A stretch of 64,000 bases of DNA from Symbiodinium sp. CCMP2592 (lineage: Eukaryota > Sar > Dinophyceae > Suessiales > Symbiodiniaceae). The notes under the pieces were generated by a model. It made no database searches, had not been told where the DNA came from, and saw only the letters and a list, made by a program, of their open reading frames with translations. The stretch is taken from assembly GCA_905221615.1 (NCBI GenBank), contig CAJNDT010006191.1, positions 413,585 to 477,584 of the forward strand, in the 5' to 3' direction. A program made the translations under genes and the position numbers. Positions 15,140 to 34,735 of the stretch are shown here, in pieces; the stretch's first letter is position 1, and each line of letters starts with the position of its first letter.

Positions 15140-15580
15140 GCCCCGCTCGGAACTCCGAAGCCCTCAGCTATAGCGTTTAAGGCTTTGGGTTTAGGGTTTA
15201 GGCTTTAAGGCTTAGGCTTAGGGTTTAGGCTTCTTTGCAGCCCCAACCCTTGGAAACCCGAAGCCCTCTGCACTTCTCACTGCAACATAGATAGAAGAGG
15301 GTTTAGGGCTTCGGGCCCGAAGCCTGCAACCCTTTCTTATCTTACAAGCATGAGTCGGATGATCAACGGCGAATGGTGATATGCTCATGACCGCTTTGTT
15401 TATGTGTTTTTCTTTGGGTTGTTTTGCATTTTGGTCCGGTACCAGCTTTGCTGCTCGGGACTGGCAGATTTTGGATTCGGGGCTTGAGGCCAGCAGATAC
15501 AGGTGGATATTGGGTGCAGGTGCCCTCTAGTCGGCTCAAGAAAGCTTCGGGCGCCAAGCATAGAAGTGTCTGGCTGCAAA

Positions 15581-15650
15581 ATGCCCGACATCCTCTTGAG
15601 AGCTGCTGCTTCTGGTGCTGAGACTCTTGGATCTCTTGAAGGAGCTTCAA
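15581..15650 (+). CDS. Unit A exon 1 (start)
   Basis: ATG at 15581 opens MPDILLRAAASGAETLGSLE. In unit B (24214) the same codons differ at five or so positions, all synonymous (AAA/AAG, AGA/CGA, GCT/GCC, TCT/TCC, CTT/CTG), which identifies frame and selection. Upstream, GTGCAGGTGCCC is a plausible cis- or trans-splice acceptor. The 3' border is unclear because reading on meets TGA. Confidence 0.6.
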
Positions 15651-15899
15651 CTTGAGATAGGGTTTAGAGCTGAAGGTTTCGGGTTTAGGGGTTCAGGGTT
15701 TAAGGTTTAAGGTTTAGGGGTTTAGGGTTTAGGGTTTAGGGGTTTAGAGTTCAAGGTTTCGGGTTTAGGGGTTTAGGGCAGCTATTATATTATTCGACAA
15801 TCAGGATTTTCCTGGACCTTAGAAACTCTACACTATCAGGGTTCTTTATGGTGTTTCGTCATATTGAAGCCCAGAGAAAGAAAGCTTAATTTTAAACTT

Positions 15900-16057
15900 G
15901 AGCTACGTACCCGAATATGAGAAAAATGCTAGGGATCAAAATAGCCCAAAAGCCTTGTACAGTATGGTCTTTGGGCCCAAAGGCCTCAATATATGAGTCC
16001 TTAGATCCCTAGGGAACCGAAGTATGCACTGCTTGTCCCCACTATGCGGAAGCCTAC
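15900..16057 (+). CDS. Unit A exon 2, split by an IR-A element
   Basis: Two halves, SYVPEYEKN (to 15927) and GTEVCTACPHYAEAYL (from 16013), join in frame once 15928-16012 is removed. They then match unit B (SYVPEYAETPLCTACSHYAEA, 24625-24708), which has no interruption. Confidence 0.6.
15928..16012 (+). mobile_element. IR-element family A acting as a GC-AG intron, absent from unit B
   Basis: 85 nt: GCTAGGGATC at the left, GATCCCTAG at the right, then G. The element supplies its own AG and the C of the GC donor. Removal joins AAT and GGA codons in frame. The homologous exon in unit B lacks the element, so this is either a recent gain in A or a precise loss in B. Confidence 0.7.
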
Positions 16058-16098
16058 TTAAGCTTGAAGGATCCGGTGGCATAGAAAGTATTTGAATC

Positions 16099-16190
16099 AC
16101 CAAAAAACCTACCTTTTTTCAGGATTTATATAACGAAATCATACTAATTACGGAACCCTAAGAAACGTAGGTTCCTTAGGGTCCAGGTAG
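16099..16190. mobile_element. IR-element family E, copy 5
   Basis: CACCAAAAAACCTACCTTTT at the left, AACGTAGGTTCCTTAGGGTC at the right. Confidence 0.7.
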
Positions 16191-16693
16191 GTTATAGGTA
16201 AGGTCTGAATGTGCAAGGCACAGTTGGGGTAGCTACAACCCCACCGAAACCTGCTTACTAAGTCCCCTGATCCTGGATAATATGTTTAGTCTTCCTGATT
16301 GAAAAGGAAACCTGGTGTCTAGAAGACAACGCGAACGTTTGTTTCCCACGTCTGGTGTTTGAAGGGTGTCTGTTTTTACGGGTTTCGCACGGTTTTTCCG
16401 GGTTTCGCATGGTTTTGACGGGTTTCGTACGGGTTGTTTACGGGCTTTGGACGGGCCGAAGAATTGGGAACCTGGTTTTATGTTCAGAAACCAGGTATGT
16501 ATCAACAATTGCCTAAAACCCCAGTTCTTGGAACACTTCCTGCTTTAAAGCAGGTTTCGGAAGGCGTAGGTAAGCCCTAACCTCTGAAACTCCACACTCT
16601 GAACCCTGGTTGAAAATCCTAACGCCTAAACCCCTAAACCCTAAACTTCAAACCGTATTCAAACCCTAAGCCCTAAACCCTATAACCCGCCTT

Positions 16694-16803
16694 ACTTGGC
16701 GGCCCAGGCGACTTAGCAAGTATAGGTTATAAGTAGGGTTATACTTGGGGTACTTATATCCCTACTTATAACCTCCTTATTAAGTCCCCTGGACCTCCAA
16801 GTA
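16694..16803. mobile_element. IR-element family B, copy 2
   Basis: ACTTGGCGGCCCAGGCGACT at the left, TTAAGTCCCCTGGACCTCCA at the right. Not seen at the corresponding point of unit B (about 25,100). Confidence 0.75.
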
Positions 16804-16810
16804 GAATGGG

Positions 16811-16951
16811 CTCAGGATTGCGAAAGTAGCCGTCGAGCCCCTTGAGCCGATTGCACGGCTCCGCCGAGCCGCGGTGGCGGCTGGGCATGGAGGCCCAGCC
16901 GAGCTGCGCTGCGGCCTGCGGCTGATGTGTGGCTCCGAGGTTTGCGGGAGT
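16811..16951 (+). CDS. Unit A exon 3
   Basis: LRIAKVAVEPLEPIARLRRA through MCGSEVCGS. Compared with unit B (25124-25264), nearly all nucleotide changes are third-position, and only I/V differs. It ends at TGA if read on, so the true donor lies just before. Ala/Arg-rich. Function unknown. Confidence 0.6.
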
Positions 16952-16970
16952 TGATGGGGTTTGGGGCTTT

Positions 16971-17063
16971 ACCCAGAGGCCCCAAAGTAGTTCCTTTTTG
17001 GGATTACCTCATAGGGTTCTATATATGAACCCCAAAAAGGAACTACTTTGGGGCCTTTGGGCA
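16971..17063. mobile_element. IR-element family D, copy 4
   Basis: ACCCAGAGGCCCCAAAGTAG at the left, TACTTTGGGGCCTTTGGGC at the right. Lies in the intron after unit A exon 3. The matching unit B intron lacks it. Confidence 0.8.
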
Positions 17064-17156
17064 GGGACTATGGAGTATATGGCTTGAAAGTTTAAGCGGT
17101 GTATCAGCCTCTTTGGGTCCCTAATTAGAAGGGGATCAGAAGTTTGATAGTTAAAT

Positions 17157-17240
17157 CTAGGGATCAAAACAGCCCAAAGGCCCTATATAGTATGGTCTTT
17201 GAGCCCAAGAGCCTTCATATATGAGTCCTTAGATCCCTAG
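17157..17240 (+). mobile_element. IR-element family A, copy 6
   Basis: CTAGGGATCAAAACAGCCC at the left, CCTTAGATCCCTAG at the right. It is inserted into an intron, and the homologous unit B intron (around 25,460) has no copy. Confidence 0.8.
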
Positions 17241-17308
17241 GACCATACCCTAAACCCTAAACCCTAAGCCTTAGTGTATGAGTCCTGAGACCCCTGGGGT
17301 AAGTGCAG

Positions 17309-17380
17309 GTGCTGCGCGACAGCGCGACGATGGAGGCATCGGGCCTTGGTGGTGGCGGCACGGTCGACGTGGTGAAGGAG
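17309..17380 (+). CDS. Unit A exon 4
   Basis: After AG|G, VLRDSATMEASGLGGGGTVD is conserved in unit B at 25478-25550, where a GT donor follows. Gly-rich middle. Function unknown. Confidence 0.6.
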
Positions 17381-17476
17381 GGCATGGGTTTAGGGGTTGT
17401 AGGGTTTAGGGTTTAGGGTGTTTAAGGTTTAGGGTTTAGGGTTTGGGGCTTAGGGTTCTGGTGTTTATATACTACT

Positions 17477-17572
17477 ATAGTCTCCTTAGGAATTATTTTC
17501 GTTCATTTAAAAACCCAAGAGAAGATTGAACATATGTTTTTTATTATGGTTCTGAGGGGGGTACAGACTATC
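17477..17572. mobile_element. IR-element family Q, copy 1
   Basis: TAGTCTCCTTAGGAATTATT at the left, TATTATGGTTCTGAGGGGGG at the right. Second copy at 38787. Confidence 0.65.
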
Positions 17573-17772
17573 CTTGTTGCCAAATTTAAGGGTTCGCGGC
17601 AATATATACTTAGACATCCTCTGAGTTAGGGATCCTAGATACGAATTAAATTGAACTGCACTATAAAGTCGCCTGCAGACTCGACATTTCTACATAATAC
17701 GGTTTAGGGTTTAGGGTTTAGGGTTTAATAAGTCCTTAGCCAAGTGGGTTTCTTAGGGTCCAGGTGAGCTCT

Positions 17773-17861
17773 ACTCTGAGGCCCAGGAGACTTAGTAAAC
17801 GGGTAATAAGTAGAGTTATAAGTTACTTTTTTGCTGGCTTACTAAGTCATCTGGGCCTGAA
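17773..17861. mobile_element. IR-element family B, copy 3 (diverged)
   Basis: CTGAGGCCCAGGAGACTTAG at the left, CTTACTAAGTCATCTGGGCC at the right. Confidence 0.65.
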
Positions 17862-18160
17862 CCCCTTGTAGATCCCTTTTAAAGAGCCCTGTAAGGAACC
17901 CTTTAAGGAACCGTAGTTATTAAAAATTCCCTCTCAGGATCCAAAGACCTTCAGGTTAACCCAAAAAAAGGAGGAACTACAGTGGAGGGTTTAGGGTTTA
18001 GGATGTAGGGTTTGGAGACTATCCTGAACCCTATACCCTCAACCTTAAACTAAACCCTAAACCGACTACCAAAATTTTCATTATCTAGATATGAAGCCCT
18101 TTTTCGGAACCGTTTTCGTAGCCCTAAACCTTAATCCCCAAACCCCAAAGCCCTAAGCCC

Positions 18161-18252
18161 TACCTTAACCCCAAATAGCCTACCTTTTTAAGGATTTGTA
18201 AAGAAGTCATATTTGGGAATCCTAGAAAGGTAGGTTTTTCAGGGTTAAGGTA
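18161..18252. mobile_element. IR-element family E, copy 6
   Basis: TACCTTAACCCCAAATAGCC at the left, GTTTTTCAGGGTTAAGGTA at the right. Confidence 0.8.
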
Positions 18253-18382
18253 ATCCCTAAACGCCCTAACCCCTAAACCCTAGACCTTAAGCCCTAAACT
18301 TTAAGCCCCCAAAATCCTGAACCCTAAACCCTAAACCCCCTTAAGGGATCCTCTAAGGGCTCCCTTAAATCCGACCCTTCAG

Positions 18383-21081
18383 GTGCCCTCTCTTGAGTTC
18401 TGGCGCGAGAGCACCATCGCTTGGAACTCGATCCAAGCTCCGGTGGGGGGCGCGCTCTGCGAGGGCGCCAAGGCGCAGGGTTTAGAACCACGGTTTAGGG
18501 TTCAGGGGTTTAGTGTTTAGGGTTTAGAACCCAAAGCCCTGAAACCCTAAACCCTAAACCCAAGAGACCCTAAATCTTAAACCCTGTAGACCCTAAATCC
18601 TAAACCCTATAAACCCCAAGGCCCTTGTGCGAGCCGTAAGGTGCAGCATGTTGGTTTCGATCTAGACCCTAAACCCTAAACCCCAAACCCCAAACCCTAA
18701 ACCCTAAACCCTATACACCCTAAACCCCAAACCCTAAACCCTAAACCCTATACACCCTAAACCCCAAACCCTAAACCCTAAACCCTATACACCCTAAACC
18801 CTAAACCCTAAACCCTAAACCCTATACACCCTAAACCCCAAACCCTAAACCCTAAACCCTATACACCCTAAACCCCAAAACCCTAAACCCTAAACCCTAT
18901 ACGCCCTAAACCCCTATACACCCTAAAACCCCAAACCCTAAACCCTAAACCCTATACACCCTAAACCCCAAACCCTAAACCCTAAACCCTATACACCCTA
19001 AACCCTATACCCTTATAGAATCCCTATAGATCCCTTTAAAGGAGCCCTAGGAACCCTAAACCCAAGGTGCAGCAAGTTGGTTTCGATCGGCTCCTGGCCT
19101 TCCCAGGGCTCCCGGCCTGGCGCCGCTATCTCGGAGATCGCAAAGATCCTGGGTTACGGTTTAGGGTTTAGGGGTTTAGGGACCCTTAATAGGGACCCCT
19201 AGGCTTTAGGGTTTGGGTTTAGGGTTTAGGGTTTAGGGTGAATAAACAAACCGGCTAGTGGAAAGGGATATAGGTATAGGGCTCTGTCTATTATTTCTAA
19301 AAGGACAAGGGTGATCCTGCGTTCTTGTTACAGGGATTGAACCCAGAATCTGGGAGGATCCAAAAAGTAGATCCCTTAGTGGGGGTTCCTATAAAGTACC
19401 CTTGGTAGTATAGGCCCCCTTTCTAGATCCTCCCGGAGGTCTGGGAATTTAAGGTACCATAAGGGTAGGGGTTCCTTTAAAGTCTAAACCCTAAACCCTA
19501 AATAAAGGATCTATATGAGGGTTAAACCCCTCCACCAGAACCCAGGATCCTGAAGCGTCTGCACTCTCTGACTTCATCGGCCCCTACGAGATCAAGCGCT
19601 TCGAGGCCCTATACCCTACCGAACCCCTCAAGCCCTAGTCCTTAAAACTCTTAATATCCTAAAGCCCGAAACCCTGACCCTAAACCGTATGTAAACCCTT
19701 AGACCCCACCCGCCTAAACCCTTTAATTAAACCCTAGACCTTAAACCCCTCAATAAAAAAGCCCTCAATACCGTAAACACCGAAGCCTTAACCCCCTAAG
19801 CCGTTCGAGATGGGAGTTTCCAAAACTAGGGGACCCTAATATAGTACCCTAAATAGTAGGATCCTTATTATGAGGACCCCAAAATATGGTACCACTAATG
19901 TTCGGAAACTCCAAACCCGAAGCCCTTTATAGAACCCCTCTAGATCCCTTCAAGGCACCCTTATAGATCCCTTTAAGGAACCACTAATTCCCGAAACCGT
20001 TCGAGATTCAAGTGTTTCGAGGCGTCGGACGTCTGGTTGATCGGTGCTAACGAGCCCATTGCCTCGGAGGGCTCTGTGAAGACCAGCTCTGGCTACATCA
20101 GCGCGAGACGGATCCCCTTACCCCTGCCGGAGGCCCTAATCTTAGGGGTACTTAGAAATAATTTTAGTTTTTTGTTATTATAATCCCTAAGAGACAGCTG
20201 AAATTAGTATTTTTGCAAGGGTTCTAAGTTCAGTATAGTCATGGGTTCTATAAAGGTTCCTTTCAAGAGTACTAGAAGGGTGTTATAGGGGTTTTGGGGG
20301 GGTTTAATTTAGGAACCTGATTAAGAAACCCTGGGTCTGTATTAGGGCTCCATATATGAATCTTATTATTTGGGGGTTGCAGGACCAGGTTTTCTTAATC
20401 AGGTTCCTACATTAAACCCTAAACTCTTGAACCCCTGAAACCCCCAAACCCCTTCAGCCCTGAGCCCCTAAACCCCTTAAGCCCTAAACCCCTAAAGCCT
20501 TTGTAAGCCCTAAAACTGTACCCCTGCCGGAGGGTCACGCCATCCACGCCTTTAAGCTGGAGGGCGATTGCGCCACCGTGCTGTTGGCTCCGGGGCTGGC
20601 GGGTGAAGCCATGGAAGGTCTGAAGGATGGGATGCTTCAGAAACTTCGCCTTTACCCCAAGGGTCCAAAGGACCCAATAATTAAGTACTCGGTTTTAGGA
20701 TAGAAGTTATGTAGGTTAGGATTTTGGAGACGGTACTTGGACCCTTGGGGTTATAGAGTAGGTAACCTTTAGCCTTTTTTGGGTAGTATAGTCCCTATAT
20801 AATCCCTATATAACCAGAAACCTGGGTTTGGAGTACCATACTTGAATATTTTTGGTACCTGTTCCTTAAGGGAACCATTATGAAAAAAAGTCTATACTTT
20901 GTTCTCCCTGGTTACTTCAAAGTCCAGGAAATTTCGCCTTCATGGCCTCGAGGAGGAGGATTTCCGCGCGGCCCGTTTTGAGGCAGAAGGTGCTCCTGTT
21001 CCCTTCAAGTTCAAGTTCCCAGCCGTGTCCCATGGGCATGATCTTCGCGTCGAGGGCTACTATGTGATGATGCGCAATTAG
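18383..21081 (+). CDS. Unit A exon block 5-10, unknown conserved protein
   Basis: Six exons (18383-18472, 19067-19144, 19546-19605, 20022-20132, 20533-20639, 20928-21081) join into about 199 codons ending MRN-TAG. Recognisable stretches are EFWRESTIAWNSIQAP, DFIGPYEIKRFEASDVWLIG and KFKFPAVSHGHD. All introns except the last are phase 0. Donors are GC (18473, 19606, 20133) or GA (19145, 20640), and every acceptor is AG|G. The unit B homolog (29518-30501) has only four exons. No known domain was recognised. The protein looks globular and soluble, with no signal peptide or membrane segment. The TAG coincides with the left end of a family O element, so a longer spliced protein is possible. Confidence 0.65.
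18473..19066 (+). other. Unit A intron with 37-bp minisatellite (GC-AG)
   Basis: 594 nt, GC donor, AAG|G acceptor. The exon end CCAAGGCGCAG is echoed at the intron end as CCCAAGGTGCAG, a direct repeat across the intron. The unit B equivalent (29608-29759) is 152 nt with a GT donor. Confidence 0.6.
18666..19015. repeat. 37-bp telomere-derived minisatellite, about nine units
   Basis: Unit is CCCTAAACCCCAAA, then two CCCTAAA, then CCCTATACA. Copies are near-identical with a few slips. It is absent from the same intron of unit B, so it expanded after the duplication. Confidence 0.9.
19145..19545 (+). other. Private intron of unit A (GA-AG), absent from unit B
   Basis: 401 nt bounded by the direct repeat GATCCTG at its start and just after its end. 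Donor GA, acceptor CCCAG|G. Removal gives ...RKDPEASALSDF in frame. Unit B reads continuously through EASALSDF. The intron contains telomere-like sequence and a family F element (19341-19446). Confidence 0.65.
19341..19446. mobile_element. IR-element family F, copy 2
   Basis: TGGGAGGATCCAAAAAGTAG at the left, CTAGATCCTCCCGGAGGTCT at the right. Lies inside the private intron 19145-19545. Confidence 0.75.
19606..20021 (+). other. Shared GC-AG intron with about 20-nt exon echo
   Basis: 416 nt. The last 18 nt of the upstream exon (GAGATCAAGCGCTTCGAG) are repeated, slightly changed, as the last bases of the intron. Unit B has the same arrangement at 29928-30041 in only 114 nt. Contains a family V element at 19818-19912. 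Confidence 0.65.
19818..19912. mobile_element. IR-element family V, copy 1
   Basis: GAGTTTCCAAAACTAGGGGA at the left, CTAATGTTCGGAAACTCC at the right. Relative at 35065. Confidence 0.65.
20133..20532 (+). other. Shared GC-AG intron with 15-nt direct repeat
   Basis: 400 nt, GCCCTAA start, GGAG|G end. TACCCCTGCCGGAGG occurs at both borders. The unit B equivalent, 30153-30240, is 88 nt and is almost only CCCTAAA repeat. Confidence 0.7.
20310..20413. mobile_element. IR-element family J, copy 1
   Basis: TAGGAACCTGATTAAGAAAC pairs with TTTTCTTAATCAGGTTCCTA. Lies in the intron 20133-20532 and is absent from the unit B intron. Confidence 0.85.
20640..20927 (+). other. Private intron of unit A (GA-AG), absent from unit B
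   Basis: 288 nt. CAGAAACTTCGCCTT at the start is echoed by CAGGAAATTTCGCCTT across the end. Donor GA, acceptor CCAG|G. Removal restores ...GMLQKFRLHGLEEED, the continuous reading in unit B (30241-30501). It is filled by a family M element (20654-20830). Confidence 0.7.
20654..20830 (+). mobile_element. Family M element, copy 2
   Basis: CCCCAAGGGTCCAAAGGACC...GGACCCTTGGGGTTA hairpin, then GTAGGTAACCTTTAGCC and TAGTCCCTATATAATCCC, as at 9868. Confidence 0.7.
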
Positions 21082-21183
21082 GTTCCTGAGCAGTGCCCTT
21101 TTTTCTTTCTAGTCTCTTGTTTTTTAAATAGAACACTATAGGTAGAAGGGTGCCCCTATCATGAAGGGGTTACTGCGGAACCG
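21080..21183 (+). mobile_element. IR-element family O, copy 2
   Basis: TAGGTTCCTGAGCAGTGCCC at the left, GAAGGGGTTACTGCGGAACC at the right. Also present at the same position in unit B (30500-30611), so it predates the duplication. Confidence 0.75.
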
Positions 21184-21300
21184 AGGCAACTTTAACTGGC
21201 AGGAGGGCGACCAGTCTGACGGCCCTAGGGAAAAAGGCCTCGGGAGGGGCTCATGTCATGATGGGATCTTTGGCCGTGATCGCTGCGGCCAGTTGCTCCT
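21184..21300 (+). CDS. Unit A conserved segment after the TAG
   Basis: Directly after the family O element, a stretch with GACCAGTCTGACGGCC is conserved in unit B (30612-30727). One frame (ATLTGW/RRATSLTA..) continues in phase with the upstream exon across TAG. Another (GNFNWQEGDQSDG) is also open. It could be a further exon or 3' UTR. Confidence 0.4.
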
Positions 21301-21335
21301 AGGTTTTTGTTAAGGAACTTCTTTCAATATAAGAG

Positions 21336-21438
21336 CCTGAATAATTACTAGTATTTTTTGGGTGTTCCTTATTGTAGTCCTAGTATAATGGCCCCCCCAA
21401 AACCCTATTGTATTTATTAAGGCGCCCGTTTTAAGCTA
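21336..21438. mobile_element. IR-element family T, copy 1
   Basis: TAGTATTTTTTGGGTGTTCC and CCTAGTATAATGGCCCCCCC core, as at 48360. Confidence 0.6.
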
Positions 21439-21753
21439 GCACAATAGAGATCTACGCTAAATTATTAGGTTTTCTTTTTGAACTTCCTATGGTAACTCAA
21501 GGCAAATTCCTTATCAAGCACCCTCAACCCTAAACCCTAGACCGTCAAGCACCCTGAAAAAGGAGCTTTAAAACGAAAGACTGCTCGACCGGAGCTGCTG
21601 AACCCTAAATCCTAAACCCTGAACCCCAAACCCTAGACCCTAAACCCCTGAACCGTAAACCCTTATCAAGCACCCTAAACCCTAAACCCTAAACCGTCAA
21701 GCACCCTCAAAAGGGATCTCAAAAAAAGAAGAAAAAGAACGTTAAGCACCCAG

Positions 21754-21838
21754 GCTCGCCCGCTGTTGCCCTCAGCAAGATCCAGCGCAAGATCTTCAGC
21801 GGGGCTTCGACTTCGAAGTTTGCGAACCTTGGCCTTTG
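21754..21838 (+). CDS. Unit A exon with SKIQRKIFSGAS
   Basis: After CCCAG|G, a basic segment ending STSKFANLGL is conserved in unit B at 32867-32949. The following family P-like sequence (TTGTTAAGGAAGT) starts the next intron. Function unknown. Confidence 0.5.
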
Positions 21839-22138
21839 TTAAGGAAGTACGGTTATGTTACCATACTAGGGATATATAAGCGCTCCTTTAAGGGATCTAT
21901 ACTATATAGGGATATATAAGCGTTCCTTTAAGGGATCTATAAGGTTCCTATTCAGGAAGTTAGCTGAAGTTTCCTGTTCAGGACGTTAGTTCAAGCTACC
22001 ACAATTAGTGATGTATAACAGATAATGTGGTTTCCTTATAGCTTAAAAACTCCGCCGCCTAAACCCTACTCCCCAAGCCATAAACCCTAAACCCCTAAGC
22101 CCTAAACCCCAAGCCCCCAAACCCCTAAAACCTCAACT

Positions 22139-22257
22139 CTACGGTAGAAGCCGAAAAGTTGGAAACCCAATAGCCTCAATCCTGAAGAGTACTGTATAGG
22201 GAATCCCAGCACCATTTGGCCTCAATCAGGTTTCCAACTGTATGGGGCTTACTGTAG
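22139..22257. mobile_element. IR-element family L, copy 3
   Basis: CTACGGTAGAAGCCGAAAAG at the left, CAACTGTATGGGGCTTACTG at the right. Confidence 0.75.
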
Positions 22258-22334
22258 CAAGAACTCTAAACCCTAAACCCCCAAGCCCTAAACCCTAAGC
22301 TCCTAAACCCCTACAGCCTCAACTCTAAACCCTA

Positions 22335-22988
22335 GCAAGAGCCAAGGAGCTTCAAGAAGGTGCCGAGCCTCGGCAACTGGCCACATGGAAAGCTGTAGGC
22401 CACATCTGCCACACCTGCCAGGCCTTGGGGGAACCGGCTCTGGCTGATGCCGACCGGGGTTTAGGGTTTCGGGTTTAAGGGTTTCGGGCGTAGGGGTTTA
22501 GAGGTTTAGGGTTTAGGATGTACCTTAACACCCCAAGTAACCTACCTTTTTTAAGGACTTATATAAAGAAATCTTATTAGGGAACCCTAAAAAGGTAGGT
22601 TCCTTAGGGTCCAGGTAGGATTTAGGGTTTGGGGCCAGGCCCTGGGCGACCGACTCCTGCTGATGCCCACAAGGGCTGGTGAGGACGCTTCTAGGTAGGG
22701 CTTTGGGACATTTTATATTTTCCCTTATTGGGCTTAAGAGGATCTTACCTACTAATATTTTTCAATGGCTTTAAGAGCACCTCCTAGGCTTTCTATGAGA
22801 GCATGCAGCTGATCGAGTGGCCCACACAGAGCAAGTTGCGTGAGGTTCCCTTAGAGTTTCGGATGGGGTACATCGAGGGCGAGTGGCCACGTGGCATCCT
22901 TGCCGGGAGCACACAGACTTTCTTTACCTGCCACGAGATTGATGAGTACACTGAAACCGTCTTCGTTTTCGCGACCCCGGAGATATAA
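22335..22988 (+). CDS. Unit A terminal exon block
   Basis: Exons about 22335-22457 (QLATWKAVGHICHTCQALGE), about 22645-22686 (LGDRLLLMPTRAGED) and 22788-22988 (FYESMQLIEWPTQSK to VFVFATPEI, TAA). Unit B matches with an extra intron after WKA and no intron after GED. CHTCQ is a short Cys pair, not enough to call a metal site. The product is unrecognised. Whether it is the C-terminus of the 18383-21081 protein or a separate gene depends on how the TAG at 21079-21081 is handled. Confidence 0.6.
22521..22619. mobile_element. IR-element family E, copy 7, absent from unit B
   Basis: TACCTTAACACCCCAAGTAA at the left, TAGGTTCCTTAGGGTCCAGG at the right. At the corresponding point of unit B (about 33,515) the flanks GGATGTA and TTTAGGGTTTGGGGCCAGG meet without it. 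Confidence 0.8.
22687..22787 (+). other. Private intron of unit A (GC-AG), absent from unit B
   Basis: 101 nt. Upstream exon ...GAGGAC, intron GCTTCTAGGTAGG...CTCCTAG, then GCTTTCTATGAG. GCTT is duplicated at the borders. Unit B reads GAGGACGCTTTCTATGAG without a break. Confidence 0.75.
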
Positions 22989-24213: not shown

Positions 24214-24283
24214 ATGCCCGACATCCTCTTGCGAGCTGCTGCTTCTGGTGCCGAGACTCTTGGATCCCTGGAAGGAGCTTCAA
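24214..24283 (+). CDS. Unit B exon 1 (start)
   Basis: Same peptide as 15581-15650 with only synonymous changes. A CCCTAAA-rich insert separates it from the upstream GTGCCCTCTAGTCGGCTCAA segment, whereas in unit A the two are nearly adjacent. Confidence 0.6.
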
Positions 24284-24624
24284 CTTGAGATAGGGTTTAG
24301 AGTTGAGGGTTTCGGGTTTAGGGGTTTAGGGTTTAAGGTTTAGGGGTTTAGGGTGGAACATGTGGAACTAGAGTGGGTTTTGGAATCAACTTGACCCTAA
24401 GGGCCCCGGTGCCCAATATATACTCTCCCAGTGGTAACTTGTAAACTGTTATCCGAAACCCGAGCACTGAATTATTGAGATAGGGAGCTAGACTGGGGTT
24501 CTCGCAGAGAAATTGGATTTTCCCGGACCCTAGAAACTCTATGCCATCAGGGTTCTTTATGATAATTTCGTCATACTGAATTAAAACCCAGAACAAGATA
24601 GGTTTTGAGGGGTTAATGTCAAGC

Positions 24625-25550: not shown

Positions 25551-26296
25551 GTTAGGGGTTTAGGGTTTTTGTACCATCCTTGCTGCTAAATTTAAGGGTT
25601 CGCGGCAATACTTAGACTTAGGAATCATATCCGGTGATTTATAAATCCTAGATGAGAATTAAATAGAACTGCACTAGAAATTAGCCCCCTGACTCGACAT
25701 TTCGATGTGAACGGCTTTTTTCTTGCCTGAAGCAAAGGTAACACGGGGGGCATGTTGTTTGTTAATTTGAAACGCTGCGCGTCGTCCGCCTCGGCCCGGC
25801 TGTAGGCGCATGTGGCGAGTGGCTACTATCTGCAGCAAGCTCTTGTAGGAAAAAAGTAACAGTTGGAATCGCACTTATAGTAAAAGTATAATGTTCATAG
25901 CAACACGAAGCAGGATGATTGTGAGTAGTATTAGTAGTGGTAGTATCAGTACGAATTTTGGTGTCGTCATTCCGAAACACTGGATACCAAGACTCTCGCA
26001 AGCGGCGGGATGCCTTAAGTATGGGCCGTTGAGGCTGTGGATTTCGTGGGCGTCTTGGATTAGGGAAGCATTACAGCCTTTTCAACCACGTTACTCCGCC
26101 TATCCCAACGAAAGGGCGTCTAAAACAAGCCTGAGACGCAAAGCCATCAATTCGATACCAACATAAGGGCCCAAACAATGATTAAGACCCTGCTGGGGTT
26201 GTTTTGATAGAGTTAAAGTATATTGAAGTCATTAAGGCCTTGCAAGAAATAGAGACGGCAGCCATGCATGCCCGCTTGTTGTCCGGGCTTTGAAAG

Positions 26297-26464
26297 TTTT
26301 TCAGGCTGGGGTTAGGCTGTAGGGTTAGGAATTCAAGTTTGAAACTCCCTTGGTACTGCAGCCTTACAAGCGAGCCCCAATTTTTCAGGCTGGGGTTAGG
26401 GTGTAGGGTTAGGATTTCAGGTTTGAAACTCCGTTGGTACTGCAGCCTTAAAGGCGCGCCCCAA
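26297..26464. repeat. 84-bp tandem duplication
   Basis: Two copies (26297-26380, 26381-26464) starting TTTTTCAGGCTGGGGTTAGG and ending GAGCCCCAA/GCGCCCCAA, with a few differences. Confidence 0.9.
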
Positions 26465-26524
26465 GAGATAAACATGCTACATTACAGTCCGGTGTCGTCG
26501 GAAATTCCCAGAAAACTCGCACCT

Positions 26525-26790
26525 GTCAGCGAGGGGGGGAGGGGCGGGAGGGTGGGGGAGGAGGGGAGGCGGGGGGCAGGGCGGGGGAGGGGGGGCGTCG
26601 TCTTTGGGGGGGAAGCGAGGAAAGGGTGGGACTGCCCACAGAAGCAAAAATCCGTTGGAGGGGGCGAGAATTCACCGCCGTACCTTGGAGCTCAGTGACG
26701 CGCTTCCATTTTTAAGGGGGGGGGGGGCAGTGGCCCCGATTTTTGGTGTGGGGTCAGTGGGGAGGGGATTAAGAGGTGGGGAATAGAGGG
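26525..26790. repeat. Purine (G)-rich tracts
   Basis: GGGGGGAGG-type runs at 26525-26620 and a G12 run near 26717. The open frames here are Gly/Arg-rich artefacts of composition. Confidence 0.7.
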
Positions 26791-26931
26791 AATCCGAATA
26801 GGAGGCGAAGAAACAGAGCATTTGGGGGATAAATCCATGGTACAAGCCATGGGTCATAAGATCTGAGATGCCAAAGCCCTAGAAGCCCTAAACCTTTAAA
26901 ACCCTGAACCTTAAACCCTAAACCCTTGAAC

Positions 26932-26948
26932 AGCCATTTTGGCTCAAG
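26932..26948 (+). other. Dinoflagellate spliced-leader relic
   Basis: AGCCATTTTGGCTCAAG is an exact 17-nt match to the 3' part of the dinoflagellate spliced leader (CCGTAGCCATTTTGGCTCAAG). The first four bases are replaced by telomere-like DNA. Chance occurrence in 64 kb is negligible. Embedded leaders of this kind are known to mark cDNAs that were reverse-transcribed and reinserted. Confidence 0.8.
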
Positions 26949-26959
26949 CTCGTCTTCCT

Positions 26960-27289
26960 TTATGCCACACTTCTTGCACTACTCCGAGAGCTGGTGATGG
27001 CTTCACGGCGGAGGTAGTCTTTCTCACCGGAGGTGGTGGCGCGGAGGAGGACGCGAAACGGGGGCTTGACGGGAGTCTGGTGGACCTCGGCCGCGAGCTT
27101 GCGCCATGATGGGGTCTGTGTCGTACGCAGAGCGGGCGGCGGCATAGGCCTGGTCGACTGTTGAGGGGTTGTAGAAGGGGTCCTCGTTGCCCGTGAGGGG
27201 CAGGGTTCTGGTGCCACAACGGCTACGTCAGACGTGCCGCAACCGAGCTGGCCACGTGCCGCCCAACACGGCCACAGCCGCCACGACAA
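26960..27289 (-). pseudogene. Broken - strand reading frame
   Basis: On the - strand, GNEDPFYNPSTVDQAYAAAR and then, after a frame change near 27,110, RKLAAEVHQTPVKPPFRVLL can be read as one protein. The frame break and missing 5' end suggest a dead fragment. Family not recognised. Confidence 0.4.
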
Positions 27290-27348
27290 AAAAAATAATT
27301 ATTTGGACCACACCGCCCTAATCCTCAGACCTGGACGCGACCGACACA

Positions 27349-27640
27349 ACGGGCACTCTGGTGAGCCACGTGTGCCACCACAGCAGGAAGGTGGTGCTGC
27401 ACACGGACACGAGCATGTTGGATGCTGCGAAGCACCTTGCCCACTGCAAACCCAGGATGAACATGGGCACGTTCAAACTGCGGTAGTTCGCCTTGGGCCT
27501 GAACTATTCCAAGCACGGGCCGCTTTTCGCTCCGGAGCTGCAGGAGCACCTGAAGCCCATCTCCATCAGCATGTTCGACTACATGCACAACTTTGTTGGC
27601 GTCTTTCATGTGGAGATGACGCAGCTCCTCCAGGTATTGC
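27349..27640 (+). pseudogene. Decayed + strand ORF, possibly repeat-encoded
   Basis: One frame reads SHVCHHSRKVVLHTDTSMLD...MNMGTFKLR, TAG (27484-27486), then FALGLNYSKHGPLFAPELQE and FDYMHNFVGVFHVEM. The pattern of a Met-His within an aromatic stretch reminds me of multicopy dinoflagellate repeat proteins, but this is from memory and weak. The in-frame stop and absent flanks suggest a relic. Confidence 0.4.
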
Positions 27641-27699
27641 AAAACCAGGACTTCAGTATCCACGGCCGAGGCCCACCCGCCGACGCCTCCGATGCTCCC

Positions 27700-27930
27700 G
27701 GTGGTTGACGCGTCGTCTACTGCGGATCCGCCACCACCGTTTTCGCCGAGGGCCCGTGCCACTTACGCCGCGACGTCGCCGGCGACACGGACTACGCCGA
27801 ATAAGACTACGCCGGCGTCGTCCTGACCGTCGACTCCATCCTCGACGCCCACCGCCACTTCGGCACCATCCGCGCCTTCGTCGCCTCCCTCGCCAAATGC
27901 TTCCTGCACATTAGGGGTCGTCTTGCTGTG
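27700..27930 (+). pseudogene. GC-rich fragment, possible continuation
   Basis: A frame with PCHLRRDVAGDTDYAE, a TAA stop, then LTVDSILDAHRHFGTIRAFV. Very GC-rich. The alternative Arg/Pro-rich frame is a composition artefact. Possibly part of the same decayed cDNA. Confidence 0.3.
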
Positions 27931-27999
27931 GCTGGTGCTGGTGCTGTTGTTGTTGTTGTTGTTCTGAGCAGCAGTCCTCCGATTCTTCCTACCTACCAA

Positions 28000-28680
28000 A
28001 ACTAAGTGGCACCTTTAGCCTGCTGCTGTGCTGGTGGCACCTTTAGCCTGCTGCTGCGCTGGTGCTGTTGTTGTGCTGTTGTCGGTGCTGGTGCTAGTGT
28101 TGCTTTGTTCTGGCTGGAGCAGCGGCTAAAGGCACTCACAGCAGCGCCGCGATCAGAAAGCCCGGCTCCTGTCAGGATTGCAAGGTATAGGGTGTAGGGT
28201 GCAAGGCTTCAGCACTGGACTGTCCTTGCGGCCGGGGTCTTGCTGCGCAGCAGCTGCTTCGACCTTTCTCCTGTTCCGTCTTGTCGTTTTTTTCGTTGTG
28301 TGTGTTCTCTCCTGAGCCGATGAGGCGGGGTCTCGAGCACCTCTTCTTCAACCTGTCGCGCTCTTTTCTCTGTCTCTTTCTCTGTGGCTTGTGTTTGCTT
28401 TGCTGAGCCCAGATGCGTCCTCGCAGAGGTCTGCCTCCTCGGAGTCTTCCACTTTGCTCTCTATCTCTTTCTCTCCTCTGTCTTGGTCGTGTGTGTTTTT
28501 CTCTGCTGAGTCGATCGCGGGGCCGGCCTCGCAGACTTCCTCTCTCACCTTGGTTTTTTTTTCTCGCTCTCTCCTTTGTCTCTGTGAGTTGTGTTTGTTC
28601 AGGTGCTGAGCAAATCGCAGGAGGAGAAGCTTCGCCTGCTTCCCGCGATCATACCAAACTCGCAGGGCTGTTTTCGTTGA
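28000..28680. repeat. Local tandem and CT-rich repeats
   Basis: Two copies of GTGGCACCTTTAGCCTGCTG (from about 28,004), then three diverged copies of a roughly 110-bp CT/TG-rich unit with CTCTTTCTCTGTG-like segments (28,260-28,620). No gene supported. Confidence 0.55.
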
Positions 28681-29212
28681 TTTGGGGCTGGATATTGGCC
28701 GCTAGGGTCAAGGAAAGAAGCCAGGCCAACAACAGCACCAGCAATAGACTAACAGCAGCAGTCTTACGGTGCCACGTAGCTTTGCTAGGGTTTAGTCAAC
28801 TCAGGACCTCGAGCTTTTGTGTAAGCGGCTCAGACTGCTGTGCTAGAAGCTCTTGTTGTAGTGCTACTGTTACAGTTTAAGCAGTAACCCCACCAGGATT
28901 GCAATAGACCCTAAAGGTCCATGCCACAAAGCACTAAACCCTGATCCTCCAGCCCGAAACCTCAAAACAGCAGGCTAAATGCCCAAGCCCCGAAACGTGC
29001 ACCTTTAAGATGACTGCCGTGAGCCTTTTACGCCCTGACCCTTAAAGACCTTAAACCCTAAACCTTTAACAGAAGCTGCCCAACACCCTGGACCCTAAAC
29101 TCTAACACGCAAAACCCAAAGCCTTAGAACCCTCAAGCCTGTATCACCGTACTACCTGGCCCCTAAGAAACCTACATCTTTACAGTCCTTGGGTATGATA
29201 TCCGTATATAAG

Positions 29213-29360
29213 TCCAGGTACACCCTATAAAGGATCCTACCTGTAGTCTCCATTGTAATATAGTGTAGTTCCTTGTTTGTTGATTTTTTATATTCAATGG
29301 CTCGGACCCTATAATATAAATTTCGTTAACCCAGGAACTACTACGGAGACCATCCGAAAC
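29213..29360. mobile_element. IR-element family R, copy 1
   Basis: CTACCTGTAGTCTCCATTGT at the left, GGAACTACTACGGAGACC at the right. Relative at 46911. Confidence 0.6.
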
Positions 29361-29517
29361 CTTATACCCTAAACATCCCTAAACCGTAAACCCCGAAGCC
29401 CCAAACCCTCATAGCTTTTAAAAGCCTTCATTAATGTTTACAGATTGCGCCTTTTTGGGGAACCCTTTTTGTAGCCCTGGTAGACTAAGCCCTATAAACC
29501 CTGAATCGACTCTTCAG

Positions 29518-30501
29518 GTGCCGGCCCTGGAGTTCTGGCGCGAGAGCAACATCGCTTGGAACTCGATCCAAGTTCCGCTGGGGGGCGCGCTCGGCGAGGG
29601 CGCCAAAGTGCAGGGTTTAGGGGGCTGCAAGCCTAAACCGTCTTAAACCCCTAGGCCCCTATAACACCCAAACTCTACGCCATAGCAAGAGCCCAGGAGC
29701 TGCCGTAAATCCTATAATTAGACCCTAAACCCCAAGGTCCGTAGTGTGCTGGCCCCAAGGTGCAGCAAGTTGGTTTCGATCGCCTCGTGGCATTCCCTGC
29801 GCGCCCGGCCTGGCGGCGCTATCTCGAAGACCCGTTTTCCGCGTTTTCCCCGGGTTCCTATGACGAAGAGCTTGAAGCGTCTGCACTCTCTGATTTCATC
29901 GGCCCCTACGAGATCAAGCGCTTCGAGGCCCTAAACCTCAACCGCCTAAACCCCTACCCTAAAGCTTAAAGCCCTTAATACCGTAACCCTTAAACCTAAA
30001 CCCCCTAAATCCCTAAACCGTTCGAGATCAAGCGTTTCGAGGCGTCGGACGTCTGGTTGATCGGTGCTAACGAGCCCGTTGCCTTGGAGGGCTCCGTGAA
30101 GATCAGCTCTGGCTACATCAGCACAAGACGGATCGCCTTGCCCCTGCCGGAGGCCCTAAACCCTAAACCCCTAAACCCCTGAACCCTTAAGCCCTAAACC
30201 CCTAAACCTTTTAAGCCCTGAACATGTACCCCTGCGGGAGGGTCACGCCATCCATGCCTTTAAGCTGGAGAGCGGATGCGCCACCGTGCTGTTGGCTCCG
30301 GGGCTGGCGGGTGAAGCCATGGAAGGTCTAAAGGATGGGATGCTTCAGAAATTTCGCCTTCATGGCCTCGACGAGGAGGATCTCCGTGCGGCCCGTTTTG
30401 AGGCAGAAGGTGCTCCTGTTCCCTTCAAGTTCAAGTTCCCAGCCGTGTCCCATGGGCATGATCCTCGTGTCGAAGGCTATGATGTGGTGATGCGCAACTA
30501 G
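29518..30501 (+). CDS. Unit B exon block 5-8, unknown conserved protein
   Basis: Four exons (29518-29607, 29760-29927, 30042-30152, 30241-30501) give about 209 codons ending MRN-TAG. Homologous to 18383-21081, with SPGSYDEELEASALSDF where unit A has a shorter segment plus an intron. Introns are all phase 0: GT-AG (29608-29759), GC-AG (29928-30041) and GC-AG (30153-30240), each ending AG|G or repeating the exon end. No domain recognised. Mostly conservative differences from A suggest that at least one copy is functional. Confidence 0.65.
29928..30041 (+). other. Telomere-like GC-AG intron with exon echo
   Basis: 114 nt of CCCTAAA-like repeat. The intron's last 18 nt (GAGATCAAGCGTTTCGAG) repeat the exon's last 18 nt (GAGATCAAGCGCTTCGAG). 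Confidence 0.7.
30153..30240 (+). other. Telomere-like GC-AG intron, 88 nt
   Basis: Begins GCCCTAAACCC, ends CCCCTGCGGGAG|G. The end repeats the exon end CCCCTGCCGGAG with one change. Confidence 0.7.
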
Positions 30502-30611
30502 GTTCCTGAGTAGTGCCCTTTTGCTCTTTTGATTTTGGGGTTTCAAACAAGAATAGAATATTAGGATTAGGACAGGGCACCCTTATCATTAAAGGGTTAC
30601 TGGGAACCTAG
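30500..30611 (+). mobile_element. IR-element family O, copy 3
   Basis: AGGTTCCTGAGTAGTGCCC at the left, AAAGGGTTACTGGGAACCTA at the right. Orthologous to the copy at 21080. Confidence 0.75.
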
Positions 30612-30870
30612 GCGACTTTAACTGGCTGGAGGGCGACCAGTCTGACGGCCGCAGAGGAAAAGGCTTCGGGAGGGGCTCACGTCGTGATGGGATCTTTGGC
30701 CGTGATCGCTGCGGCCAGTTGCTCCCAGGTTCTTGCTAAGGAACTTTTTTAACTCTACCACGATAGGGATCTTTGGTAAATAACAGGGTTTCTTTCTGAA
30801 ACTTATATGGTAACTCAAAGTAAACTCCCTAAACCCTAAACCTCTTTAGCACATAGAAATCTAAACCTTA

Positions 30871-31100
30871 ATGAAATTCGTCGGCAAGGCCCGAAAATTC
30901 GTCGAACATTCGTCGGCAAGGCCCTTCGTCGGCAAGGCCCGACAACTCGTCAGCAAGGCCAATTCTTCGGCAAGGCCCAACGACACGGCACAAAAATTCG
31001 TCGGCAAGGCCAAGTCGTCGGCAAGGCCCGCAAATTCGTCCCAACGGCAATGCCCAACAGTTCGTCGGCAAGGCCCGAAAATTCGTCGGCAAGGCCATGC
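30871..31100. repeat. TTCGTCGGCAAGGCC minisatellite
   Basis: About a dozen imperfect copies of a 15-17 nt unit. It keeps a + strand frame open, but the peptide is purely repetitive. Absent from unit A. Confidence 0.85.
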
Positions 31101-31109
31101 CTTACGATT

Positions 31110-31660
31110 CCGGCTTCAAAGTTTCGGCGCTAGGGTATCCGCTGTAAGGTTTCGGCCGTATGGTATCGGCCTTAGGGTTTCGGCCTTTGGGTTTCTGGCT
31201 AAGAGTTTCGGCCCTAGGGTTTCTGCCTTGAGGCTTCGGCCGGCTTCGGTTTTAGGGTCTCGGCCTTACGGTTTCGGCGTTCCGGCCTCAAGTTTCGATT
31301 TAGGTCGGGTTTCGGCCTTAGGGCTGCGGCCTTTGGGATTCTGCTTTAGGGTCTCGGCCTTAGGTTTTGGCCATAGGGTCTCGGCCGTACGGTTTCGGCC
31401 TTAGGGTTTCGGCCTCAGGGATAGGGTTGTGGCGATAGCCGGTTTCGGGCTTAGGGTTACGGCCATAGGGTCGTTTCGGCCTCAGGGTTTCTGCTTTAGG
31501 GTTCGGCCCTAGGGTTTCTGCCTTGGGCCTTCGGCCTTGGGTTTTGGCTTCGGTTTTCGGGTTTCGGCCTTAGGGTTTTTTCGGCCATGGGGTTTCTGTC
31601 AGTCATAAGGTTTCGGCCTCAGGGTTTCGGTTTAGGGTCTCGGCCATGGGGGTTCGGCCT
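31110..31660. repeat. TTTCGGCCTTAGGG repeat field
   Basis: Degenerate 14-nt unit, a TTTAGGG repeat whose every second unit is replaced by TTTCGGCC. It follows the 15-17 nt minisatellite directly, giving a two-stage repeat. Confidence 0.85.
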
Positions 31661-31712
31661 CATTATAAAGAAGTGTTCAACCCAAAAGCTGTTAAACTAT
31701 AATTAGTTGGTT

Positions 31713-31792
31713 CCAGCGGAGACATTGAAAATTCAGCTGCGCAAGGAATATGAATCCTTGTATATTCCTGATGTTATGGGATTCTTTGGGCG
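31713..31792 (+). CDS. Exon candidate inside unit B
   Basis: PAETLKIQLRKEYESLYIPD through GFFGR, then a GTGGGT donor. A damaged copy of this exon and its downstream flank occurs near 32,640-32,790. No equivalent was found in unit A. Product unknown. Confidence 0.5.
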
Positions 31793-32159
31793 GGTGGGTT
31801 TTTCCACATCGAAAACCGCTAGCTTGAGTAGAACCTGCTCGATCCGGATCTGCTTGCTGAACCCTAACTTAAACCCTCAATCTTAAACCCGAAACCCTCT
31901 CCTTCTTATATTATGTATATGTATATATACACATATGTGTTCACTTATTTCAACCCCGAGGAACGTTTCATTTTCGCCAATATTACCCCTGGTGTTCAGC
32001 CTCAAGCTGCCCCTGAGTGCCTGTTAAGAAGCCTCTGCTCTGCAAATCCAGCCACTTTTCGCCAAATCGGACCGGTGTTGGGCACAAACTCCTTGAGCCA
32101 TAAAGCCTTAGTGTGGCCTCAGGGTTTAGGATCGAGGGTGGGTTGGGGATGAGTCTAGA

Positions 32160-32690
32160 GTGTGACGCGATGGTTTGAAGCACTGCACCAACATCTTGCT
32201 ATTTGGAGCGAGGGTGTGCCCAAGATGTAGCAGGGTGTACTTGAGCGAATGAGCATTCAAGTAGGGTAAAGTACCTTGCAGCAGATTTTTAAGGTTATAC
32301 ACCAGCTAGTCGAATTTGTAGCTGATACTAATATTCTGCCATGAAAGAAGCGATCAGCAACACGCGCGACTGTTCAGGTTCAGCTCGGACACTGATGTCA
32401 TCTATAAGAACTCTGTTATGTTATACCAAGAACGGTAATTAAGACAACAGATTTTCAGGTTTAGTTCGTACATCGACTAACAACGTCTATGATCAGTTAT
32501 CTTCTGCCATGGCAGACACGGTAACCAAAGCAAACGAATTTTAAGGTTTAGCCTGTGGCTCGAACAACACCGCTTGTAACGTTTGATACTGTTACACATC
32601 AAGACAACAGCAGTCACTACAAATAAAAGAATTCGTCTGAAGTAGAAATATGGCGCGAGGCCGTGTGAATTAGAAAAAGTTGTATTTCTG
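32160..32690. repeat. Diverged tandem segments with CAGATTTTCAGGTTTAG motifs
   Basis: Three loosely similar segments of about 120 bp between the two copies of the PAETLK exon. No frame is supported. Probably expanded intron or intergenic sequence private to unit B. Confidence 0.45.
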
Positions 32691-32866
32691 AATGTTTTGG
32701 AATTCTCTGGGTGGGAGGGTGGGTATTATTCCATCTTCTAAATAGCAAGCTCGATGAGAGACTGCTCGACCGGAGCTGCTGAACCCTAAATCCTAAACCC
32801 TAAACCCTGAACCCCAAACCCTAGACCCTAAACCCCTGAACCTTAAACCCCTTATCAAGAACCCAG

Positions 32867-32949
32867 GCTCGCCCGATATTGCGATCAACAAGATCCAGGG
32901 CAAGATCTCCAGCGGGGCTTCAACTTCGAAGTTTGCGAACCTTGGCCTT
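32867..32949 (+). CDS. Unit B exon with NKIQGKISSGAS
   Basis: Homologous to 21754-21838. AG|G acceptor, ends at FANLGL before a TTCGTTAAGG family P-type intron start. Confidence 0.5.
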
Positions 32950-33196
32950 CGTTAAGGAAGTTAGGTTATGTTACTTTACTCGGGATATATGAGCGTTCCT
33001 TTAAGGGATCTATAAGGTTCCTATTCAGGAAGTTAACTAAAGTTTCCATAAGCAGGGATCTATAACAAATATATAACTGGGTTTTTTCCTTAAAATCTCT
33101 GCAGCCTAAACCCAAAGCTCTTCACTTTAATCTCTGAACCCCCAAACCTTAAACCCGACACCCTTAAACCCAGAAAACCTCAGCTCTAAACTGTAG

Positions 33197-33799
33197 CAAG
33201 AGCCCAGGAGCTGCGAGAAGGTGCCGAGCCTTGGCAACTGGCCACATGGAAAGCCGTAGCCGGGTTCTTGTTAAGAAAATTTAGGGTTTTGGGGTTTAGG
33301 TTTTCAAGGTTTAGGGGTTTACGGAAAAAGCTACCATAGCAAAGAAAACCTATTATTTGCCATAGATTTCGAAAAGGTAACTTACTTTGACAAGAACCCA
33401 GGTAGGCCACATCAACCACACCTGCCAGGCCTTTGGGGAACCGGCTCTGGCTCATGCCAGCAAGGGTATAAGGTTTCGGGTTTAAGGGTTTATCGGTTTT
33501 GGGGGGTTGGGTTTAGGATGTAGGATGTAGGGTTTAGGGTTTGGGGCCAGGCGTTGGGGGACCGGCTCATGCTGATGCCCACAAGGGCTGGTGAGGACGC
33601 TTTCTATGAGAGCATGCAGCTGATCGAGTGGCCTACACAGAGCAAAGTGCGAGAGGTTCCCTTACAGTTTCGGCCGAGCTACATCGAGTCCGAGTGGCCA
33701 CGTGGGATCCTTGCCGGGAGCACACAGACTTTCTTTACCTGCCACGAGATTGAGGAGCTCAGTGAAACCGTCTTCGTTTTCGCGACCCCGGAGATATGA
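33197..33799 (+). CDS. Unit B terminal exon block
   Basis: Exons about 33197-33255, 33402-about 33470 and about 33545-33799 (TGA). WQLATWKAVGHINHTCQAFG spans the private intron 33256-33401. Then GDRLMLMPTRAGEDAFYESM reads continuously to VFVFATPEI. Homologous to 22335-22988. Confidence 0.6.
33256..33401 (+). mobile_element. Private intron of unit B made of a family P element (GT-AG)
   Basis: 146 nt. GTAG occurs at the start and immediately after the end, as expected of a 4-nt duplicated target. Inner arms CCGGGTTCTTGTTAAG and CTTACTTTGACAAGAACCCA pair. Removal gives KAVGHINHTCQ, matching the uninterrupted KAVGHICHTCQ of unit A (22,380-22,410). Confidence 0.8.
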
Positions 33800-34735
33800 G
33801 CAAAGCTCTTGTGTCAGCACACCGGAGACTCGAACAGACCCATTCGCGCAAGGAGAAACGAGCTCGTGCCTCCGTGTTTTGAGGTGTAACAGGGATGCTT
33901 GCTCCCTTGAATCCTTTACCCTATAAATCCGTGTCAGCACAGGGAAGATGCGAACCGTGCTTCCGGAAGCCAAGGCTCAAAGACGGGAAGCAAACTTAAG
34001 CAGCAGGAAACATCAAGAGATCCCAGTACCCCGTAAACTGGAATAATACAGCGCAGAAGCTATTTAGCCCCTAGCTCGTTTCAGGCATCTTCGTAGATTA
34101 AGGGTGTTTTTGGTGACTGCAACCTGGACAAAGGTTGTATCAGCCTGCCCTGAAAGCCCTTGTTAAGGTCGTGCAGATATTGATAGACTATATCCCAAAT
34201 TACCGTTCCAATCATGACTGAGACGCTCAAAGCACCGAGCTCGAACCTGCAATCCATAACCTAAACCTTAGAAGTTATACCCTCAAACCTACACCCGAAG
34301 CCCGAAAGCCCAGTAGGCTTCCAAACTCCTCTGAAGTCTTGATACAACATGGCCGGAAGCTCCCTGCGCAAAAGTTTGCAGCAGCGGGACCCAGTTCGGG
34401 GTGACATGGTTCGTAGGGATTGGGGTGTGGGATTTGGGGTTTGGGATTTTGCATTCCTGGGTGTCGGTGGTGTGCGCGGTAAGGTATTTTTATGTGCAAG
34501 GGCTTAGCATCACGACCACTACACAGCACTGTCTTCCTTATGTGCCCTTAGTGCAGGTAAGGACTGTGATTAGTTCATCACCATCGTGCTCGTTCGCATT
34601 CTTCCGACTGCTCTTGCCTTGCTAGGAGCCCAAAGCTTTGGGGCAGAGGGCTGGATTGATCAGCGGACTAGCTAAGCAGGCCATGTCATTAGAGTTATAA
34701 GTCCACTAACTGAGGTTATCCTGTCTCCACCCCTA

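Follow-up and report, generated by a model that had tools for sequence, protein, structure and literature searches.

Introners of Symbiodinium microadriaticum are described as inverted-repeat elements that duplicate 4 bp of their target, so that the 3' splice site lies in the element and the 5' splice site comes from the duplication (Gozashti et al. 2022, PMC9860276, legend to Fig. 2B). According to a review that summarises Roy et al. 2023 (PMC11453091), introners create introns in dinoflagellates and were recently active in four of the five dinoflagellates studied. Interstitial telomeric repeats are inserted at double-strand breaks, and in the account of them that bears on our case duplication alone marks 3 of 66 horse loci (PMC7215372). 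Here we describe a tandem pair of paralogous genes, A (15.5-24.1 kb) and B (24.1-34.6 kb), in Symbiodinium sp. CCMP2592. They lie in a stretch of 64,000 nucleotides, the window, which spans positions 413585-477584 of a 1,444,356-bp contig in a 1.098-Gb genome. Four introns are found in one paralog only. We consider it probable that these are recent gains, three by insertion of an inverted-repeat element with duplication of a 4-bp target and the fourth in some other way.

Introns present in one copy only

The proposal of an earlier note on this DNA, that one gene unit lies here twice side by side, was borne out. The reading frames of A and B are open and constrained, and alignment of one unit with the other gives collinear, head-to-tail blastn blocks from 15564/24197 through 24090/34584 (E < 1e-12); looser settings add short matches out of order, mostly repeat-like. 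Both genes are on the plus strand. The coding span of A (15581..22988) has 14 exons, and removal of its 13 introns leaves an open frame encoding an intact protein of 442 residues followed by a stop. That of B (24214..33799) has 12 exons and, minus 11 introns, encodes 452 residues and a stop, identical at 452/452 residues to P0001, a protein deposited for this strain; as P0001 is itself predicted and guided several of our B junctions, this is agreement with a prediction and not independent proof of splicing. Of the 442 aligned residues 393 are identical in A and B, and over the 442 aligned codons the coding exons share 92.6% of nucleotides, with non-synonymous and synonymous divergence (dN and dS, NG86) of 0.058 and 0.145. 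Judged by their sequences, neither gene looks like a pseudogene.

We find ten intron positions common to A and B, which agrees with the earlier statement that most other introns are held in common, three found in A only (I4b, I6b and I11b) and one found in B only (I10). All 24 introns have GA, GC or GT as donor and AG as acceptor, and retention of any one of the four copy-specific segments introduces premature stop codons. I4b (19145..19545, plus strand) is a GA-AG intron with the tetramer GATC and inverted ends CTGGGTT; an alternative donor at 19136 is in frame, as is that at 19145, and a further repeat element lies inside it at 19341-19445. I6b (20640..20927, plus strand), also GA-AG, is bordered on both sides by the exon duplication GAAAYTTCGCCTT (12/13) and its interior is a mosaic, in which an inverted-repeat element occupies about 20654-20751, a piece of a repeat 20754-20820, and the rest is unassigned sequence. 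I11b (22687..22787, plus strand; 101 bp; GC-AG) has the tetramer GCTT, and I10 (33256..33401, plus strand; 146 bp; GT-AG), whose removal matches P0001, the tetramer GTAG. These are the four segments that had been listed from the sequence, and all are present with G(A/C/T)...AG ends. The further claim that they are cleanly absent from the other copy, and that each removal restores a frame matching it, stands in full for I6b, I10 and I11b, where the other copy has a clean empty site. At I4b the frame is restored, but the site is not clean: B has 10 more codons there than A and 13 more than the homolog P0002, and neighbouring residues do not match. A fifth intron had been proposed in IR-A (15928..16012, plus strand), said to split an exon of A. 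IR-A is a dispersed element with inverted repeats, and the window holds 7 of its group; it lies inside I1 of A (15622..16815, plus strand), an intron position common to B and D, the third paralog introduced below, and the stretch occurs in none of the 8 aligned homologs, one of which (P0003) begins only past exon 1. We therefore rejected it as an exon-splitting intron, which leaves four events and not five. The reading frames at 15.62-16.1 kb in A and their counterparts in B, missing from all 8 aligned homologs, were rejected as exons too.

Each of the four copy-specific introns opens with the same four bases as the exon that follows it (GATC, GAAA, GTAG and GCTT), an identity found at 2.9% of 725 control AG|G sites. 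The exact tetramer repeat is seen at 4 of 20 ends of common introns (Fisher p 0.007, in a test that counts the A and B ends of one intron apart, so that they are not independent). Such an excess is as expected if the copy-specific introns are younger than the common ones. Likewise, the ends of I4b, I10 and I11b are inverted repeats at 10/14, 12/14 and 10/14 positions, and only 0.4% of 1969 control sites reach 10. In these three the donor consists of the first two bases of the tetramer, and the AG is formed by the last two bases of the element. Ends are similar among I4b, I8, I10, I11b and the D introns I8 and I11. Some common introns, all on the plus strand, carry parts of the same arrangement: I7, with tetramers GCAA/GCAA in A (21074..21185) and GCAA/GCGA in B (30494..30611), inverted ends 9/14 in each, is absent from D, and I8, at a position common to A, B and D, has tetramers GCTC/GCTC in both copies and inverted ends 7/14 in A (21295..21753) and 11/14 in B (30721..32866).

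A scan of the 64 kb for the whole signature gives five matches at four loci, I4b matching on both strands, where controls average 0.05 with a maximum of 1 (20 resamplings). Three of the four loci are I4b, I10 and I11b. Since introns already recognised had served to define the motif, the scan speaks for specificity and not for discovery. Another 46 kb of sequence yields a single locus, intron I8 of D, which marks the signature as rare outside introns; this match is not independent, the motif having been informed by the introns of A and B at the same position. The fourth locus in the window is a minus-strand element (8897-9013) with an exact GTTT repeat, inverted ends of 12/14 and ends that resemble those of I7; no gene is assigned there.

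The third, complete paralog, D, lies on the minus strand of another contig (C4987), encodes 438 residues and has 8 introns; residues 327-697 of the protein P0007 match it in pieces at 90-100% identity. In a tree with a midpoint root, in which more distant homologs fall beyond D, A and B group with P0002 apart from D (support 97/96). Absent from D are I4b, I6b, I10 and I11b, and likewise I5, I6 and I7, which are common to A and B; D has one intron of its own, I7d, with the repeat GAAG. At I5, I6 and I6b the sites in D are intronless and hold a single copy of the exon segment that is duplicated around these introns. An outgroup comparison had been suggested, with an outgroup containing all of the introns as the result that would point to repeated loss; D is the opposite case. 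Because D stands outside A and B and has none of the four, parsimony makes them gains (4 changes, as against 8 for loss), and the sequence comparison thus supports the view that the copy-specific introns were gained after the gene copies diverged. For I5, I6 and I7 the choice is between loss in D and gain after D had split off but before A and B separated. Intron I9 of D (L009/L010, C4987:251177-259555) is 8.4 kb long, that of B 0.27 kb. Part of the same gene, corresponding to B residues 104-162, lies at 4039-4170 of L011 (C384:60001-69000); it ends abruptly and, judged by eye, is very similar to D.

How would such introns arise? A short, non-autonomous DNA element whose ends are inverted repeats (5'-CYNGG...CCNRG-3'), presumably moved by a transposase supplied in trans, would insert into an exon and duplicate a 4-bp target GNNN. 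The left copy of the target would become the first four bases of the intron, with its GA, GC or GT as 5' splice site. The AG would come from the element's own end and the right copy would restore the exon, so that once the segment is spliced, as it presumably is, the mRNA would be unchanged. The structure, the empty sites, the absence from the outgroup and the restored frames are the directly observed parts of this scheme. If it is correct, the origin of GA and GC 5' splice sites is simple: they would be whatever bases the target duplication happened to contain. I6b would have arisen by repair of a break with captured filler, or by an insertion later overgrown by other elements; a single introner mechanism for all four introns was rejected, I6b being a mosaic with a 13-bp duplication.

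Element-poor B beside element-rich A

Short dispersed repeats number 28 in the 15.4 kb of the left flank, 19 in the 8.7 kb of A, 24 in the 15.4 kb of the right flank and 1 in the 10.5 kb of B, counts that include simple repeats, namely the single one of B (TGC-rich), at least two intervals in A and at least two in the right flank. The deficit in B has a Poisson p of ~1e-7, or of 3e-4 when the B-only insert of about 6 kb is left out. In accordance, 18 query elements occur 30 times in the left flank, 16 times in A, 21 times in the right flank and not at all in B (24100-34630); all 18 come from outside B, which makes this second count blind to B-only families that the first could see. The same elements were found 5 times in 17.9 kb around D, not in 9 kb of the contig C384, and not in the sequence that runs from the 50-kb mark of the window to a point 9.4 kb past its end, so the element-rich tract itself is local. 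Of 14 elements of A checked for an empty site in B, about five are convincing by judgement (IR-A, F16, F17, F1 in I11 and F4 downstream); at the remaining ones the B site is blurred by intron divergence or telomere-like sequence. The B-only inserts, about 6 kb, may be young.

B may thus have been placed or converted here late, or it may have been purged. The first of these, that A and B diverged as separate loci or lineages and that unequal exchange, introgression or conversion later set B beside A, is a possibility we hold tentatively; it concerns where and when the copies diverged and is compatible with intron gain. It would account for a B almost free of short dispersed repeats, unlike A and both flanks, and it fits P0002, which is about as close to B (399/438 residues identical) as A is (393/442). 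The junctions, however, are those of a plain head-to-tail tandem, and the flank to the right of B is element-rich as well, which a single exchange does not explain. B could instead have been purged by selection, and with some outgroups it is the protein of A that changes faster: A:B changes are 28:13 with P0003 (p 0.028), 24:12 with P0002 (p 0.065) and 21:10 with D (p 0.071). Five further outgroups give p 0.33 to 1.0, so that one of eight falls below 0.05 and two near it, a weak signal. The earlier note had dated the intron changes after the duplication; this holds for the gene lineages, D lying outside and without all four, and is not shown for the side-by-side arrangement. With an element-free B next to an element-rich A, late placement can be tested against purging.

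Several other features of the region and of the gene were recorded. An insert in intron I3 of B (25704-29506) has a GC-rich part, finds no blastn match in A and contains open frames of up to 249 aa, some of them interrupted by stops when other frames are read. Window positions 1-50000 hold 24 groups of short repeats, a few of them simple or tandem and many of them inverted-repeat elements of about 60-150 bp; the flanking repeats are TA in some and 4 or 5 bp long in a few. A 252-bp tandem repeat is present in 11 copies at 50667-53472, and a 563-aa open frame at 59864-61555 matches the C-5 cytosine DNA methylase domain PF00145 at E 4e-18. When proteins were searched with a B model stitched by hand, 11 came back, 8 of them labelled Symbiodinium, with P0001 as the best; the product of A itself was absent among these 11, the nearest to A being P0001, the product of B. 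P0002 (438 aa, from a contig of at most 1410 nt) is transcript-like and does not show the intron content of its gene. Pfam returned no family for the first B model or for P0001, Rfam no match at gathering score, and the viral and genome contig scans no relative; the AlphaFold model was too weak for use (mean pLDDT 43).

Loss, repair and long exon duplications

Several observations weigh against the view that the four introns are gains made chiefly by introners. Polarity is carried by one outgroup gene, and intron status was assigned from the DNA sequence and from P0001, a prediction that guided junctions. Not picked up by the signature scan are I6b and two introns of D, I7d and I11; with inverted ends of 6/14 and a repeat extending to 13 bp, I6b does not fit the introner type with its 4-bp duplication. 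No full-length second copy of I10 or I11b is present in the 64-kb window, searched with telomere-like stretches masked, and the high-copy family that characterises introners is suggested here by similar ends, not by whole copies. I4b holds a nested element, its 3' end recurs elsewhere as a relic, and B has its 10 extra codons at the site. The relic, at 42.6-42.9 kb, contains the 3' end of I4b together with the next exon. Among the four gains we are therefore least sure of I4b, which may be older and imprecisely lost from B. The relic itself (42598-42893, minus strand) is split by two other repeat elements, one of which is flanked, by eye, by an exon repeat of about 15 bp.

Repeated, precise loss of ancestral introns, by element excision, by deletion between short repeats or by cDNA-mediated replacement, is in our view unlikely. 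Deletion between short repeats would likewise restore an empty site, and I4b, with its relic, nested element and extra B codons, could be one such case. Yet with D lacking all four introns loss needs two events for each, the neighbouring introns are retained, unlike what cDNA replacement would leave, and the three clean empty sites bear no footprint.

A second type of intron is found in the same gene. At I4, I5, I6 and I11 both sides of the intron carry in-register exon duplications of about 11-43 bp that contain the splice-site AG; between the duplicates lies filler, which is in large part telomere-like, and the sites are often AG|GC. An in-register score of >= 8 is reached in both copies by these four of the ten common introns, and in A by I6b, as compared with 0.4% of 1149 control pairs; I2 and I3 have no in-register exon duplication. 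I5 of A (19606..20021), absent from D, has a duplication of about 20 bp (19/21, one gap) and partly telomere-like filler, and in I5 of B (29928..30041) a 21-bp duplication (20/21) flanks CCCTAAA-like filler. In I6 of A (20133..20532) the duplication is 15 bp (15/15) and an inverted-repeat element not found in B lies at 20308-20411; in I6 of B (30153..30240) about 13 bp are duplicated around CCCTAAA-like filler. These four are on the plus strand. By mask, telomere-like sequence makes up 59% of I5 and 67% of I6 in B and 10% of the window, and because it is so common in the window anyway the filler need not derive from telomerase. I4 is present in D as well, and D has at the I11 position an introner-like intron (inverted ends 12/14, tetramer 3/4), which makes the origin of I11 less clear. 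In intron I4 of B the 20 bp at 29684-29703 exactly repeat those at 33195-33214, which comprise the I9 acceptor and the next exon start; templated repair could leave such a copy. I4, I5, I6 and I11 agree with intron gain by tandem duplication in having an exon segment with the AG on either side, but the arrangement is not that of a simple tandem duplication, in which the intron is the duplicated exon itself, as the filler of I5 and I6 is telomere-like and that of I6b consists of repeat pieces.

From their structure I5, I6 and I6b appear to be products of break repair with filler. We therefore put forward, tentatively and with less assurance than the gains themselves, that introns were born by two routes in this one gene, by introners with a 4-bp target duplication and by staggered exon breaks repaired with CCCTAAA or repeat-derived filler that duplicated 13-21 bp. 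By the second route the filler would immediately be a spliceable intron, at I5 and I6 before the A/B split and at I6b after it. If this were general, dinoflagellates would owe some of their new introns to telomerase or the capture of telomere repeats, and telomere-like introns with long duplications would be a little-described kind of intron source. In what we consulted of the literature on telomere repeats and intron gain, including parts of PMC7215372, PMC4974935 and PMC11782384, we found no account of telomere-like filler as an intron source, and we do not claim that none is in print.

Improbable, too, in our judgement is that break repair with filler DNA and no transposition made all four introns as well as the long-repeat common ones: I6b, I5 and I6, with their 13-21-bp exon duplications and repeat or telomere-like filler, and the 20-bp copy in I4 of B, which matches sequence 3.5 kb away, speak for it, but I10, I11b and I4b pair exact 4-bp repeats with matching inverted ends, as from a transposase.

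Comparison with described systems

Gain, by introner insertion in three cases, remains the reading we prefer, and it sets four polarised intron gains within 20 kb against a dS of 0.145, measured over 1326 aligned coding nucleotides, in a genome that offers both occupied and empty sites and, in D, an outgroup copy. The mechanism proposed for three of the introns is already known; what appears to be new is a set of further members, polarised by D. I4b, I10 and I11b share the arrangement given for the introners of S. microadriaticum in the figure legend cited above (PMC9860276). The present case concerns another Symbiodinium strain and rests on the presence of introns in one and their absence from the other of two tandem paralogs, for which a third serves as outgroup; the elements are known here from few loci. 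The introner elements of Amoebophrya, as portrayed in the portions of Farhat et al. 2021 (PMC7789003) used here, are alike in having inverted repeats at the intron ends, short direct repeats at the boundaries and unusual splice sites. Their direct repeats are of 3-5 nt and variable in length and position, and their splice motifs very variable, whereas here the repeat is of 4 bp and starts at the donor. I5 and I6 in turn resemble the interstitial telomeric insertions of PMC7215372 in their telomere-like insert and in the direct target duplication that those insertions at times show. The human loci treated there, as far as that account goes, apparently include none in coding exons, whereas in this Symbiodinium gene the inserts are introns at exon-exon junctions.

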